Shown here: one piece after another, positions 24,133 to 31,085 of the stretch
Numbering within the stretch: the stretch's first letter is position 1
How the letters are laid out: each line of letters begins with the position of its first letter
Assembly: GCF_004799665.1 (NCBI RefSeq)
Contig: NZ_CP031310.1
Span: forward strand, 1,294,887-1,358,886
Reading direction: 5' to 3'
DNA: 64,000 bases
Source of the DNA: Halapricum salinum
Lineage (GTDB): Archaea > Halobacteriota > Halobacteria > Halobacteriales > Haloarculaceae
Notes under the pieces: model-generated
Databases searched by the model: none
Told to the model about the DNA's origin: nothing
Seen by the model: only the letters and a program-made list of their open reading frames with translations
Program-made: the position numbers and the translations under genes

Positions 24133-24507
24133 ATGGATGAGAACGTCGACGGTCAGGTTCGTGACCGGCTCTCGAAACTGGACGACGAACCGACCGACCG
24201 TATCGAGCGTCTGGTTCGATCACAGACGGACGACGACCGAGCCGAAGCGCGCTACCAGATAGTGGCAGCCCTTTCGAACGCCGAGCGGCTACGAATGCTC
24301 TCGCTGCTGGTCGAGTGTGAGTGTTGCACCTGTGAGCTGCGAGCGGCCCTCGATCTCCCCCAGTCGACCGTCTCGACACATCTGTCGCAGTTGTTCGACG
24401 CCGGACTCGTTCACCGACGGCGCGAGGGGCGGTGGCGGTATTACCGGGCCGCCGAAGGCGTGGAGAAGCTGTTCGCAGCGCTCGATATCGTCTGCGAGGG
24501 TGAGTGA
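24133..24507 (+). CDS. ArsR-family metalloregulator 1
   Basis: 124 residues. A winged helix-turn-helix (ALSNAERLRMLSLLV through VHRRREGRWRYYRA) with the metalloid-binding motif ECECCTCELRAAL at the start of the recognition region, equivalent to the ArsR ELCVCDL box but with four cysteines in six residues. It should leave DNA on binding As(III) or Sb(III). The stop overlaps the start of the MFS gene, and a TTCGATAT-type repeat (about 24112-24134) spans its own start region as a possible autoregulatory site. Confidence 0.87.
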   Translation: MDENVDGQVRDRLSKLDDEPTDRIERLVRSQTDDDRAEARYQIVAALSNAERLRMLSLLVECECCTCELRAALDLPQSTVSTHLSQLFDAGLVHRRREGRWRYYRAAEGVEKLFAALDIVCEGE

Positions 24508-25733
24508 TGGTCGCCCGACGGTGGCGGAATCTGATCGGGGCAAGCGGCGCACTGGCGCTCGCTGCGATGCTCTGGTTCAATTACTCGGCCGTACTGCCGC
24601 TCATCATCGACGACTGGGGACTCTCGGGGTTCGACGCAGGACTCGTCTACAGTGCGTTCCAGGTGGGATATCTCCTGCTCGTCGTTCCCGTGGGCATGGT
24701 CAGTGACCGATACGATCCGAGATACGTAATCGCCTCCGGCGCGACGGTCGCTGCGCTCTCGAGCATCGGGTTCGCGCTGTTCGCAGCCGGAACTCTCTCG
24801 GGGTCAGTACTGCGCTTCGTCGCCGGAGTCGGGGTGGCCGGTGTGTACGTCCCCGGGATGAGATACGTGAGTGCCTCCTTCGACGCTGATCGCGGCCGGG
24901 CGATGGGCATCTACGTCGGGACGTTCTCGGCGGCCAGCGGCGCGTCGTTCGTCCTGGCGTCGTGGGTGGGATCGACGTCGGGGTGGCCGGTCGCGATCGG
25001 CGTCACCAGTCTACTGGCACTGCTGGCCCCAGCGGTCATCTTGCTCGTGGGACGCCCGCCAGTCTCTGCAGATGATGAGCGCGATGCCGACCCAGAGCCC
25101 CGTCGAGAGGGGATCGACTTGCGTATCCTTTCGAACCCCAGGTATCTGCTGACCGTCTCGACGTATTCGGCGCACAACTGGGAGCTCTACGGCGTCCGGA
25201 ACTGGCTGCCAGCGTTTCTCGCATCGACTGCTGCGGTCGCTGGCACTGCCAACCCGGCAGCCACGGCCGGCCTGCTCGCAGGAGCGATGACTGCGGTCGG
25301 TGCGGTCGGCAACGTTTTCGGTGGCACCCTGTCCGACCGGATCGGCCGACCGACCGTCATCGCGGCAGGATTGACGCTCAGCGGGACGGTGAGCCTCTTG
25401 ATCAGCGGTCTCCGGTGGCTCCCGCTCTGGGCGCTCACGGGCGTCGTGCTGGTCTACGGCATCGTCATCACCGTCGACAGTGCCCCGACATCGACGATGA
25501 TCACCGAGGTCGTCGACGACGGTCGTGTCGGGTCCGCGCTGGCGATTCAGGCGTTCGTCGGGACGCTCCCCGGCATCGTCGCACCGGTGCTTTTCGGGGC
25601 GGCTGTCGACCACAGCGGATACGGTCTCGCCTTCCAGACACTGGGTGTCGCCGCCTTCGTCGGTGTCGGAACGGTCGTTCTCGTACGGTCGCAGTTCGAT
25701 ATTGAAACAAATGCCATGGCGAGTTCCGACTAG
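24504..25733 (+). CDS. MFS transporter of the arsenic island
   Basis: About 409 residues with 12 predicted membrane helices and the MFS loop GMVSDRYDPRYVI, plus GGTLSDRIGRPTVI in the second half. Starts at the GTG at 24504 or the ATG at 24507, overlapping arsR. Coexpression with ArsR implies it exports a metalloid or an organo-metalloid, as shown for the MFS proteins ArsJ and ArsK in bacteria; it is not obviously an orthologue of either. No ArsB or Acr3 pump is present nearby. Confidence 0.83.
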   Translation: MMVARRWRNLIGASGALALAAMLWFNYSAVLPLIIDDWGLSGFDAGLVYSAFQVGYLLLVVPVGMVSDRYDPRYVIASGATVAALSSIGFALFAAGTLSGSVLRFVAGVGVAGVYVPGMRYVSASFDADRGRAMGIYVGTFSAASGASFVLASWVGSTSGWPVAIGVTSLLALLAPAVILLVGRPPVSADDERDADPEPRREGIDLRILSNPRYLLTVSTYSAHNWELYGVRNWLPAFLASTAAVAGTANPAATAGLLAGAMTAVGAVGNVFGGTLSDRIGRPTVIAAGLTLSGTVSLLISGLRWLPLWALTGVVLVYGIVITVDSAPTSTMITEVVDDGRVGSALAIQAFVGTLPGIVAPVLFGAAVDHSGYGLAFQTLGVAAFVGVGTVVLVRSQFDIETNAMASSD

Positions 25734-27029: not shown

Positions 27030-27455
27030 TCAGTCTTCGGGATGGAACTCGTCGAACAGGGCGACGACGCGCTGTTCGATATCGTCTCGAATCTCCCGGA
27101 CTCGGTCCATGTCTTTTCCATCTGGGTCGTCGAGTGCCCAGTCGCGGACATCGACCGACTCCGCATCGAGTTCGAGCGTCGAACAGCCCATTGTCGCGAC
27201 AACGTCGCACGACTCGAGTTCGGCGGTCGAGACTTCACGCGGCGTCCGGTCAGAGAGGTCGAATCCCTCCTCACCCATCACGTCGACGACTTCCGCGTGA
27301 ACGTGGTCGGCTGGATGAGTTCCACCGGTGAGGATCTCGACGCTGTCTTCGAGGTCACGTCGCTCTCGCTCCCGTTCCGCGAACGCCGTCGACATCTGGC
27401 TGCGGCCGGCGTTCTGGACGCACACGAACGCGAACGTTGTCGAATCAGTAGACAT
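27030..27455 (-). CDS. LMW-phosphatase-type arsenate reductase (ArsC-like) 2
   Basis: 141 residues from the ATG at 27455 (MSTDSTTFAFVCVQNAGRSQ). The CX5RS loop is CVQNAGRS, the acid aspartate lies in DWALDDPDGKDMD. Two further cysteines, in ELESCDVVATMGCSTLEL, are spaced eight residues apart and could act as the relay pair. It is the partner of the arsR gene 102 bases upstream on the same strand and is much closer to the copy at 50.4 kb than to the one at 23.4 kb. Confidence 0.85.
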   Translation of the reverse strand: MSTDSTTFAFVCVQNAGRSQMSTAFAERERERRDLEDSVEILTGGTHPADHVHAEVVDVMGEEGFDLSDRTPREVSTAELESCDVVATMGCSTLELDAESVDVRDWALDDPDGKDMDRVREIRDDIEQRVVALFDEFHPED

Positions 27456-27557: not shown

Positions 27558-27947
27558 TCATCTGCGGGACCCGTTGAGTGCGACGAGGAGTGCGTCGGCC
27601 CGCACAGTCGTCTGGTATTTTCGCCATTTCCCGTCTTTCCGACGTGTCACGAGTCCGGCGTCGGTGAGCTGCGAGAGCGCATGACTGATCGCGCTGTCGC
27701 TGACATCCAGAAGCGGCGAGAATTCACAGACACAGAGTTCTTCACCCGCTATGTGCAGGATACGGACTATCTTGTACCGCGTCTCGTTGGCCAGCGCGGA
27801 CAATACACTTACGTCCGCCTCGAGCGCAGGCCCGCCAGCCGCGGCGTCTAGCTCTTCGAGTTCGTCCAGGCGTTGTGCCACCTCGTCGTCGCCACAGCCA
27901 TCGCGCTCCTCTGTAAGATATCGCTGTAACCGCTCGGTTGACGACAT
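27558..27947 (-). CDS. arsR: ArsR-family metalloregulator 2
   Basis: 129 residues. N-terminal acidic extension (1-45), then a winged helix (ALANETRYKIVRIL to RKDGKWRKYQTT) containing the canonical metalloid site EELCVCEFSPLL. It faces the arsDA operon across a 341-base region and reads toward arsC2, so it probably represses both. Confidence 0.88.
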   Translation of the reverse strand: MSSTERLQRYLTEERDGCGDDEVAQRLDELEELDAAAGGPALEADVSVLSALANETRYKIVRILHIAGEELCVCEFSPLLDVSDSAISHALSQLTDAGLVTRRKDGKWRKYQTTVRADALLVALNGSRR

Positions 27948-28288
27948 GGGTTAGATTTGAGCATATGATAAAGTAAGTGTTGTGTACTGAGTCGTGGGCG
28001 CACGTGAGAGACTGCACGCTCGATTGCATAATATCCCCCACTCGTATGTATCGACGGACAACTGTCCCGCCGAGAAAGGTAGAAGCGATAACCGAGATAC
28101 GGACGCAATCACGCTAATCAAGCTGTTGTAGGCAGCCCTACCCACGACACCCACAGATCCCATCGATCAAAGCACTTATACACATATGAACAGACAATAA
28201 AATGAGTTAGATCAGATCATCCTGGACACGACCGGGGATAGATTCGGCGTATCGCCAACTCAATTGAACAAACGCTATCAACTTACGA
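27948..28288. promoter_or_regulatory. Divergent arsR / arsD control region
   Basis: 341 bases without a credible gene and clearly AT-richer than its neighbours. Two CATATG-centred sites lie near each end: GAGCATATGATAAAG (27959-27973), 15 bases before the arsR start, and ACACATATGAACAG (28180-28193), on the arsD side next to a CTTATA stretch (28175-28180). These are candidate ArsR operators. The remaining sequence shows no recognisable structure. Confidence 0.5.
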
Positions 28289-28615
28289 ATGACTGAACTT
28301 ACTCTGTACGAAGAAGCGATGTGCTGTTCCACAGGCGTCTGTGGACCGGATCCAGACGACGAACTCGTCGAGGTCAGTGCCGCCCTCGACCAACTCGAAG
28401 CGGAGTTCGATGTCGATGTGTCCCGAGCGAATATGCAACACAACATCGAGCAGTTCCTCGAAACCCAGCAAATCGCTGATCTGGTCGAGGAGCACGGCCC
28501 GTCGATTCTCCCGATTACCGTCGTCGACGACGAGATCGTCGCCAAAGAGGCGTATCTCTCCTACGACGAACTCGCATCGACTATCGAGCAGTCTGCCGAC
28601 CCACAGGAGGCATAG
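28289..28615 (+). CDS. arsD: ArsD, arsenite metallochaperone
   Basis: 108 residues. MTELTLYEEAMCCSTGVCGP carries C12, C13 and C18, exactly the three As(III)-binding cysteines of E. coli ArsD, on the thioredoxin-like fold (LPITVVDDEIVAKEAYLSYDEL near the end). It hands As(III) to ArsA. Its stop codon is immediately followed by the ArsA ATG. Confidence 0.94.
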   Translation: MTELTLYEEAMCCSTGVCGPDPDDELVEVSAALDQLEAEFDVDVSRANMQHNIEQFLETQQIADLVEEHGPSILPITVVDDEIVAKEAYLSYDELASTIEQSADPQEA

Positions 28616-30541
28616 ATGTCCGGCGAACACACTGCAGCCAGCGAAATCGTCGACCCGGACGGCGACAACACCGAGTTCGTATTCTTCAGCGGGAAGGGTG
28701 GCGTCGGCAAGAGCACTGTTAGCTGTGCCACGGCGACGTGGCTGGCCGACAACGACTACGAGACACTGTTGGTAACGACAGATCCAGCCCCGAACCTCTC
28801 GGACATTTTCGCGCAGGAGATCGGTCACGAAGTAACCGAGATCGACGACATCGACAACCTCTCTGCCATCGAGATCGACCCCGACACGGCGGCTGAAGAG
28901 TACCGACAGGAGACCATCGAGCCGATGCGACAGCTGCTCGACGACGAGCAAATCGAGACAGTCGAAGAACAACTCAACAGCCCGTGTGTCGAAGAAATCG
29001 CGGCGTTCGACAACTTCGTCGACTTCATGGACAGCCCAGAGTACGACGTGGTCGTCTTCGACACGGCACCGACCGGCCACACGATCCGGCTGATGGAGCT
29101 CCCGTCGGACTGGAACGCCGAACTCGAGAAGGGGGGTTCGACCTGTATCGGTCCCGCCGCTTCCATGGAGGACAAGAAGGCCCAGTACGAGCGAGCCATC
29201 GACACCCTGCAGGACGAACAGCGGACGACCTTCGCGTTCGTCGGCAAGCCAGAGGACTCCTCACTCGAAGAGATCGAACGCAGCGCGTCGGACCTCGGCG
29301 AACTGGGCATCGAATCCCAGTTCCTCGTGATCAATGGCTACCTTCCCGAGTCGGTCTGTGAGGACCCCTTCTTCGAAGGGAAACGCGAGGACGAACAGGC
29401 AGTCATCGAGCGAGCACAAACCGAGTTCGACGCCGATGCGATGGCGACATATCCGCTTCAGCCCGGTGAAATCGCCGGTCTGGAGCTGCTGTCAGACGTC
29501 GGTGGTGTCATCTACGATGGCAACGAGCCTACCGTCGACGTGGGCGCGGCTACTGCTGTCGAATCAGGCCACGCCGTCGATATCGATACGCTCGCCGACC
29601 CGGAATCGGTCGCCGACCAACTCCAGCCGGAAGATGGCACGCGGTACCTGTTCTTCACTGGGAAAGGCGGTGTCGGCAAGAGTACCGTGGCCGCAACGTC
29701 GGCAACGAAACTCGCCGAAGCTGGCTACGAGACGCTGGTCGTGACGACTGACCCGGCTGCCCACCTGGAGGATATCTTCGGCGAAACTGTCGGTCACGAA
29801 CCGACGTCGGTGAGCCAGCCGAACCTCGATGCGGCACGAATCGACCAGGAGAAAGCTCTCGAAGAGTACCGAACACAGGTACTGGACCACGTCCACGAGA
29901 TGTACGAGGACAAGGAAGACACCGAGCTAGACGTCGAAGCCGCGATTGCGAACGTCGAGGAAGAGCTCGAATCGCCGTGCGCTGAGGAGATGGCCGCACT
30001 GGAGAAGTTCGTGAGCTACTTCCAGAAAGACGGCTACGATATCGTCGTCTTCGACACCGCTCCGACGGGCCACACGCTTCGCTTGCTGGAGTTGCCCTCC
30101 GACTGGAAGGGCTTCATGGATCTGGGCTCGCTGACGAAGGGGGCCGCACCGGCAAAGGGCGACCAGTACGACGAGGTCATCGAGACGATGCAAGACCCCG
30201 ACCGGAGCTCCTTCGCGTTCGTGATGTATCCGGAGTTCACACCGATGATGGAGGCCTACCGAGCGGCCGAGGACCTCAAAGACCAGGTCGGTATCGAGAC
30301 GGCCTTCGTCGTCGCGAACTATCTCTTACCCCAGGAGTACGGCGACAACGCCTTCTTCGCGAACCGCCGGACACAGCAGGAGAAATACCTCGGAGAGATC
30401 AAGGAGAAATTCGAGACACCGATGATGCTCGCACCGCTGCGTCGGGACGAGCCGGTCGGGCTGGACGAACTGCGCACCTTCGGTGAGGAGATTACCGGTC
30501 TCTCGGAACTCGCGAAGAAACAGGAGGTGACGATGTCATGA
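28616..30541 (+). CDS. arsA: ArsA, arsenite-stimulated ATPase (tandem A1-A2)
   Basis: 641 residues with two homologous halves. P-loops GKGGVGKST at 26-34 and 349-357; signal-transduction motifs DTAPTGHTIRLMELP and DTAPTGHTLRLLELP. C124 (SPCVEE), C177 (STCIGP) and C455 (SPCAEE) match the three metalloid-site cysteines of E. coli ArsA (C113, C172, C422). It should take As(III) from ArsD and energise export. The usual membrane partner ArsB/Acr3 is not encoded in the window. Overlaps the next gene by four bases. Confidence 0.95.
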   Translation: MSGEHTAASEIVDPDGDNTEFVFFSGKGGVGKSTVSCATATWLADNDYETLLVTTDPAPNLSDIFAQEIGHEVTEIDDIDNLSAIEIDPDTAAEEYRQETIEPMRQLLDDEQIETVEEQLNSPCVEEIAAFDNFVDFMDSPEYDVVVFDTAPTGHTIRLMELPSDWNAELEKGGSTCIGPAASMEDKKAQYERAIDTLQDEQRTTFAFVGKPEDSSLEEIERSASDLGELGIESQFLVINGYLPESVCEDPFFEGKREDEQAVIERAQTEFDADAMATYPLQPGEIAGLELLSDVGGVIYDGNEPTVDVGAATAVESGHAVDIDTLADPESVADQLQPEDGTRYLFFTGKGGVGKSTVAATSATKLAEAGYETLVVTTDPAAHLEDIFGETVGHEPTSVSQPNLDAARIDQEKALEEYRTQVLDHVHEMYEDKEDTELDVEAAIANVEEELESPCAEEMAALEKFVSYFQKDGYDIVVFDTAPTGHTLRLLELPSDWKGFMDLGSLTKGAAPAKGDQYDEVIETMQDPDRSSFAFVMYPEFTPMMEAYRAAEDLKDQVGIETAFVVANYLLPQEYGDNAFFANRRTQQEKYLGEIKEKFETPMMLAPLRRDEPVGLDELRTFGEEITGLSELAKKQEVTMS

Positions 30542-30906
30542 ACGACCTCCAGTTCGAAGAGCAAGCCGTCGAAGACGAGCTTCGAACGTTCGTACAGACA
30601 CTCACAGACTCTGAGACCTATCGCGAATTTGTCGAGGCAAGCGAAGCACTCGACGACGACTCGGAAGCGACAGCGTTACTCCGTGAGTTCGAGCAGAAAC
30701 GACAACAGCTGCAACAGGACGAATTCGACCAATCGGTGATGAGCGAGCTGCAGGACATCAAATCGAAGATGACTGACAACGAGACTATCCAGCGACACTG
30801 CCAAGCACAAAAAGCGCTCGTCGACCTCTTGCAGGGGACAAACGACGTGATAAGCGACCAAATCGGTCGGACATTCGCCCAGTCAATCGGAGGTGGCTGC
30901 TGTTGA
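30538..30906 (+). CDS. hcsL: HcsL-type 'halo-CC-star' protein (YlbF-like helical protein ending in Cys-Cys)
   Basis: 122 residues, almost entirely helical and coiled-coil-like, resembling YlbF/YmcA proteins (EASEALDDDSEATALLREFE, then QDIKSKMTDNETIQRHCQAQ). It ends SIGGGCC directly before the stop. I recall a haloarchaeal protein pair named halo-CC-star, large and small, defined by this Cys-Cys-stop ending; this would be the large member. ATG overlaps arsA by four bases, so translation is coupled to ArsA. A role in binding or delivering As(III) thiol-wise is inference. Confidence 0.75.
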   Translation: MNDLQFEEQAVEDELRTFVQTLTDSETYREFVEASEALDDDSEATALLREFEQKRQQLQQDEFDQSVMSELQDIKSKMTDNETIQRHCQAQKALVDLLQGTNDVISDQIGRTFAQSIGGGCC

Positions 30907-31085
30907 GCACTACTGACGAAGACGTGCTGGCGGCGGCCGAAGCACTGGGGGAGGAACTGACGCAGACGCAGTCAGAGGCGACCGAGTCCGAGTTCGAGAC
31001 GATACTGGAGGAGTGTACCGAGGCGATCAGCGAGGAGATCGGAATCCGGTACGACGACGCCTGTGACACCGGCGGTTGCTGTTGA
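30903..31085 (+). CDS. hcsS: HcsS-type small 'halo-CC-star' protein ending in Cys-Cys
   Basis: 60 residues from a TTG at 30903 that overlaps the hcsL stop by four bases; no better start exists. The protein is acidic (STTDEDVLAAAEALGEELTQ), with C38 (EECTEA), a cysteine in DDACDTGG and a terminal GGCC before the stop. The shared Gly-Gly-Cys-Cys ending with the upstream protein and the coupled translation suggest a complex. Presumed small member of the halo-CC-star pair. Confidence 0.7.
   Translation: MSTTDEDVLAAAEALGEELTQTQSEATESEFETILEECTEAISEEIGIRYDDACDTGGCC

Follow-up and report, generated by a model that had tools for sequence, protein, structure and literature searches.

Two small proteins ending in Cys-Cys accompany the ATPase ArsA in haloarchaeal arsenic operons and may serve it as an accessory thiol module

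We analyzed a stretch of 64,000 nucleotides (the window) from Halapricum salinum, whose haloarchaeal genome of 3.45 Mb forms a single contig. The window contains an ars locus (Table 1). At positions 28289-31085, the open reading frames and the sequence itself bear out the gene order arsD-arsA-hcsL-hcsS described in a first-pass annotation, including junctions that abut or overlap by four bases and protein ends GGGCC and GGCC. Specifically, arsD and arsA abut, while arsA and hcsL share four bases (ATGA), as do hcsL and hcsS (TTGA). The hcsS start codon is predicted; relatives often have a GTG two codons upstream, giving a 10-base overlap, and this codon is CTG here.

Table 1. Features of the ars locus and the related chromosomal gene. 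Positions are those of the window unless a locus handle is given.
Feature	Position	Strand	Remarks
LMW phosphatase-type protein, ArsC-like candidate	27030..27455	-	divergent arm; Pfam LMWPc E 4e-32
ArsR/SmtB family regulator	27558..27947	-	divergent from arsD; NF033788 74.3 bits, cut-off 55
Putative arsR/arsD control region	28170..28288	+	TGAACA and TCAATTGAACA repeats
arsD, arsenite metallochaperone	28289-28615, stop TAG	+	NF033727 116 bits, cut-off 90
arsA (ArsA_halo), two-domain arsenical pump-driving ATPase	28616-30541	+	NF041417 1154 bits, over cut-off
hcsL, 122 aa, helical, tail GGGCC	ATG 30538 to TGA 30906	+	NF041416 160.8 bits, cut-off 140
Predicted dual-coding stretch: HcsL tail codons, GGAGGTGG Shine-Dalgarno and TTG start of hcsS	30889..30905	+	
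hcsS, 60 aa, acidic, ends GGCC	TTG 30903 to TGA 31085	+	NF041415 90.6 bits, cut-off 55
Chromosomal YlbF paralogue, window's genome	L002:1492-1917 (G000:C1:2677788-2678132)		relatives L127-L146, L150-L179

The phosphatase-type protein does not reach the NCBIfam cut-offs for arsenate reductases. The repeats between arsR and arsD resemble those 5' of arsD in relatives, and 9-mers such as TCAATTGAA are common to the regions 5' of arsD among the 76 sequences compared; we infer that these repeats are an operator of arsR/arsD. When the locus is compared to that of plasmid pNRC100 (L035), ArsR and ArsD are 93% identical, ArsA is 81% identical and HcsL 46%. Relative to another locus (L036), ArsD is less alike (88%) and ArsA more alike (88%) than they are to pNRC100. 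These sequence identities suggest recombination near the arsD/arsA junction, in addition to fast evolution of HcsL.

The names HcsL and HcsS, used in the first-pass annotation, prove to be those of the NCBIfam families NF041416 and NF041415. The window's ArsA, HcsL and HcsS all score above the curated cut-offs, the two small proteins match their profiles at full length (positions 1-113 of 113 and 1-55 of 55), and the gene order equals that of relatives annotated in RefSeq. It is therefore too strong to call this an undescribed system, as had been done, since the families are already named and annotated. The NCBIfam models carry no function, and our literature search found no paper on HcsL/HcsS or "halo-CC-star", the matches to "HcsL" being unrelated. 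Viral contigs yielded no HcsL.

HcsL belongs to the Pfam family Com_YlbF (67 bits, cut-off 23.9, E 2.4e-18), while HcsS has no Pfam match. Neither protein matches an ArsD family in NCBIfam or Pfam; only the separate arsD gene does. An AF2 model of HcsL (pLDDT 86, with tail residues 119-122 below 50) finds RicF, RicA and YmcA as its best Foldseek matches (6prk, 6prh and 2pih; TM 0.63-0.69). The fold search was decisive here, as a PDB sequence search gave one marginal match, to RicF (E 0.37). On the basis of this model, HcsL has the YlbF/RicA-RicF fold, which agrees with the YlbF-like nature that had been noted from the sequence. The AF2 model of HcsS alone is of low confidence (pLDDT 64). However, the HcsS profile aligns to the C-terminal half of HcsL with an hhalign probability of 94%, or 83% when the tails are removed, in comparison with 0.2% for reversed controls, and because of this match HcsS is probably a half-length relative of the C-terminal half of HcsL. 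HcsL thus resembles RicA/RicF (YmcA/YlbF) of Bacillus subtilis in its predicted fold, its Com_YlbF domain, its disordered, Cys-bearing tail and the pairing of small proteins. It differs in that it occurs in ars operons, that its partner would be half a YlbF unit and that its tail is a terminal vicinal pair.

To see how generally the pair occurs with arsA, we surveyed 391 genomes of the class; 68 of them have a strong HcsL, at 74 places in total. This survey rests on a genome search; a protein scan of genome contigs gave two close relatives only. The first-pass annotation held that its idea would fail if homologues lay mostly outside ars loci, but the homologues that are HcsL proper lie within them: ArsA_halo is directly upstream of hcsL at 72 of the 74 places, and HcsS is directly downstream at 73. 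At the two places where ArsA_halo is not over threshold, there is nonetheless an ArsA-matching frame upstream, one of which (L113) is a 118-aa remnant. The spacing of the domain matches always keeps one reading-frame relation, and therefore the geometry of the overlaps is conserved. Plasmids give the same picture: HcsL occurs in 24 plasmid records, of which 23 are annotated with an adjoining hcsS and one lacks annotation, and the order arsD-arsA-hcsL-hcsS was found in 12/12 plasmid regions that we opened. The ars operon on pNRC100 of Halobacterium NRC-1 also contains hcsL-hcsS. At 73 loci of the class, the neighbours include ArsD (67), ArsR (63), LMWP (49), ArsM (14), an ArsP-like permease (12) and ACR3 (8). 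HcsL and HcsS thus accompany ArsA almost wherever it is present in haloarchaea. There is one full-length exception to the linkage, a divergent ArsA_halo without nearby arsD, hcsL or hcsS (L121:5740-7644, in genome G129).

The association extends beyond haloarchaea. In two other families of Halobacteriota (genomes G455 and G576), we found an operon with the order arsD-ahpD-like-arsA-hcsL-hcsS-acr3, preceded by arsR in G576. Scores in these operons are 1156 bits for ArsA, 453 for ACR3, 100 for HcsL and 53.9 for HcsS; the latter two fall under the curated cut-offs, and hence these proteins carry no family name yet. Their tails are GGCC in HcsL and GGCDCGGKC in HcsS. The AhpD-like protein between arsD and arsA contains CEKC (L202:4972-5346 and L201:9241-9570). 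Because of the linkage to arsA and these two operons with acr3, it is very likely that HcsL and HcsS have a role with arsenite or antimonite alongside ArsA.

A genus in the same family as G576 (genomes G646 and G699) has two tandem HcsL-HcsS pairs, e.g., at L203:7929-9213, and no ArsA was found in its genomes. The HcsL proteins of this genus end in GGCY and GGCR, without CC. In a maximum-likelihood tree (126 columns, unrooted), haloarchaeal HcsL groups with the ArsA-less pairs and with both ars-linked copies from outside haloarchaea (support 95/90); the core GGCC paralogue described below and the remaining YlbF proteins fall elsewhere. Vicinal thiols bind trivalent metalloids, and pairs in genomes that lack ArsA are what might be expected if HcsL-HcsS were a cytosolic buffer of As(III)/Sb(III) acting independently of ArsA. 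Nevertheless, we consider such a sink very improbable, given the tight coupling and co-occurrence with arsA and the fact that the CC end is missing precisely from the HcsL proteins of the ArsA-less pairs.

In the window, HcsL ends in ...QSIGGGCC-stop and HcsS in ...DTGGCC-stop. All 84 intact copies of HcsL end in GGCC or GGECC followed by a stop, and mean pairwise identity is 99% in the last five residues versus 57% in the body; for HcsS, the values are 91% in the last two residues versus 55%. The two tail cysteines are the only conserved ones in HcsL, while HcsS conserves four among 77 distinct sequences: C38 (73/77), C54 (76/77), C59 (71/77) and C60 (75/77). Both genes are under purifying selection, with dN well below dS. 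A chance origin of the tails was considered and rejected, as all 19 closed frames of at least 200 aa ending in CC at the operon loci stop at the stop codon of hcsL or hcsS.

At the DNA level, the tail of hcsL is nearly frozen, synonymous sites included. It reads GGA GGT GGG TGC TGT TGA in 58/84 copies, and TGC TGT is present in 81/84. Among the glycine codons, GGT occupies position -4 in 80/84 and GGA position -5 in 64/84, and 7% of glycine codons in the body are GGA. This freezing is likely due to the GGAGGTGG Shine-Dalgarno sequence and the GTG/TTG start of hcsS, both of which the tail codons appear to spell. One might then suppose that the GGGCC end is mainly a by-product of this signal, with little role in the protein, as the frozen synonymous positions would lead one to expect. 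However, HcsS keeps its CC without any overlapping gene downstream; three loci still encode GGCC with their two Cys codons in swapped order (TGT TGC) and an in-frame ATG just downstream as a possible start of hcsS; and a paralogue outside ars loci retains GGCC with two residues after the CC. Because Cys-Cys is kept in these cases without need of the signal, the signal accounts for the choice of codons in HcsL and not for Cys-Cys as such, and a mere by-product is largely refuted and scarcely credible. Overlapping genes in archaea are reported to undergo coupled translation, and their products are often parts of a single complex (PMC6728339, PMC10666635). By analogy, the overlaps would fit a complex of ArsA, HcsL and HcsS, although they do not prove one.

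The paralogue just mentioned is a second YlbF protein, present in H. salinum and most haloarchaea, in which GGCC (rarely GACC) is followed by two residues; this end was found in 48/48 loci examined. It is a homologue of HcsL by profile comparison (99% probability) and shares GGCC near its end, but it differs in the two additional residues, in its location outside ars loci and in its distinct clade in the tree. It also occurs in many haloarchaea without arsA, and in 223/391 genomes there are only weaker relatives of HcsL and no strong HcsL. Thus, the GGCC motif is broader than its association with ars and probably predates it, making it less likely that the tail evolved to bind arsenite. The tie between Cys-Cys tails and ars genes that the first-pass annotation had drawn holds for HcsL and HcsS themselves, and it does not extend to the GGCC paralogue or to the one ArsA-less genus. 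As a separate observation based on motif recognition only, the paralogue is near a divergently oriented frame with motifs like those of Dph2, a diphthamide-related Fe-S enzyme, in 15/48 loci.

We also investigated whether the known metalloid sites of the ars proteins are intact. In E. coli, C113, C172 and C422 of plasmid-encoded ArsA bind metalloid. These residues align with C124, C177 and C455 of the window's ArsA, which are conserved in 82-84 of 84 sequences. Similarly, C12/C13/C18 of ArsD, the metalloid site in the E. coli protein (PMC4562236), are kept in 80/80 haloarchaeal sequences. The other end of ArsD is different: none of these 80 sequences has a cysteine in its last 20 residues, whereas ArsD of E. 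coli, Providencia and Latilactobacillus has CC..CC C-termini. E. coli-type plasmid ArsD (Cys112-113, Cys119-120) is therefore like HcsL and HcsS in having vicinal Cys pairs, a CC-stop and a position next to ArsA. In haloarchaea, by contrast, ArsD is tail-less and the Cys pairs are found on two helical proteins that are unrelated to ArsD.

Given these observations, our best explanation, to which we give about an even chance, is that HcsL-HcsS assists the ArsD-ArsA export ATPase for arsenite and antimonite as an accessory thiol module, with a composite site for As(III)/Sb(III). Translational coupling would supply matched amounts of HcsL and HcsS, which would pair via their helices, so that their flexible, Cys-rich C-termini could meet, with two cysteines from HcsL and up to four from HcsS. 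The resulting thiolate site would bind As(III)/Sb(III) and either deliver it to ArsA's allosteric Cys site or accept it from there, a task that in enterobacteria the Cys-Cys pairs at the C-terminus of ArsD may perform within one chain. The observed basis comprises the operon order, the conservation, the near-obligate linkage to ArsA, the invariant tails and the intact Cys sites of ArsA and ArsD, while the fold is modelled; that HcsL and HcsS bind each other, bind metalloid and transfer it to or from ArsA is what we infer.

We propose a composite site because the sites of ArsD and ArsA are conserved, because the ArsD tails contrast as described and because the Ric proteins offer a precedent, in that RicA and RicF co-ligate a cluster with a partner through cysteines in disordered tails (PMC6751060). 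The thiol module is further favored by the linkage to ArsA and HcsS across 68 genomes and in similar plasmid regions, by the order arsA-hcsL-hcsS-acr3 outside haloarchaea, by the invariance of the HcsL tail despite its diverging body and by the lack of CC in HcsL of non-ars pairs. Several points count against it. The GGCC or, in a few cases, GACC of every non-ars paralogue examined makes a use other than for arsenite possible, one genus has the pairs without ArsA, and ArsD already supplies a chaperone site. Moreover, it has been proposed that the C-terminal Cys pairs of ArsD act in repression and not as part of the chaperone function (PMC4562236). A more specific version is that the Ric-fold pair was drawn from the archaeal YlbF family and has, between its subunits, a vicinal-thiol site for loading or unloading ArsA, distinct from ArsD; we put this forward tentatively, as a possibility that is rather more likely to be wrong than right.

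The main alternative takes the Ric precedent more literally. RicA and RicF, the closest solved folds to HcsL, contribute tail cysteines to a [4Fe-4S] cluster that in the Ric complex is ligated together with RicT (PMC6751060). The tails of HcsL and HcsS might likewise ligate an iron-sulfur cluster instead of carrying arsenite, as a sensor of redox state or metalloid damage or as an assembly staple on ArsA. The four conserved cysteines of HcsS and those of HcsL would suffice for a cluster, and a general metal role could predate ars, given GGCC in the paralogue. On the other hand, adjacent cysteines seldom ligate one cluster (PMC6751060), and the near-total confinement to arsA operons indicates metalloid chemistry, so that we regard this alternative as unlikely, although worth serious consideration. 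Whichever of the two applies, HcsL and HcsS probably hold arsenite or a metal cluster for ArsA.

A further question is which membrane protein acts with ArsA. The H. salinum genome gave no match over cut-off to ArsB or ACR3, and among sampled genomes ACR3 is over cut-off in 16/40 with HcsL versus 25/40 without. In Halobacterium NRC-1, arsB is dispensable and a novel transporter has been proposed (PMC3600143), a proposal in line with a membrane exporter other than ArsB or ACR3. As NRC-1 also has hcsL-hcsS in its ars operon, the pair might be an adaptor that docks ArsA to such a carrier, with the tails making docking or disulfide contacts instead of transferring metalloid. Yet no membrane gene is conserved beside the pair (ACR3 at 8/73 and the ArsP-like permease at 12/73 loci) and both non-haloarchaeal ars operons contain acr3, which makes an adaptor improbable. 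In H. salinum itself, the gene of an ArsR-type regulator overlaps that of an MFS transporter immediately next to the ars cluster, on its upstream side (24133-25733), and this transporter is a possible candidate for the exporter in that genome. As partners of HcsL, the MFS transporter and a class V aminotransferase near the cluster were rejected, as they have no homologue at other HcsL loci. An SBF/ACR3-like transporter is also encoded upstream of the window, at a distance of about 18 kb (G000:C1:1275619-1276434, L147); its 95.8 bits are well under the ACR3 cut-off.

In summary, the NCBIfam names of HcsL and HcsS were already known, and what is new is the predicted link to the Ric fold, the probable origin of HcsS as half a protein, the wider GGCC paralogue, the apparently dual-coded tail and the occurrence with acr3 outside haloarchaea. 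Haloarchaeal ArsA is among the few archaeal arsenic systems for which there is genetics, in NRC-1, and the pair sits in that very operon on pNRC100. If the more specific version of our explanation is true, the Ric-fold thiol pair would be a type of metalloid chaperone that was missed in the classic studies of arsenic in Halobacterium NRC-1, and it could help to explain export where ArsB and ACR3 are both absent. Binding of a metalloid or of an Fe-S cluster, if true, would give a function to an orphan pair of NCBIfam families and a new type of chaperone, and it would connect the Ric/YlbF fold with the handling of metals in archaea, in which GGCC-tailed YlbF proteins are widespread.
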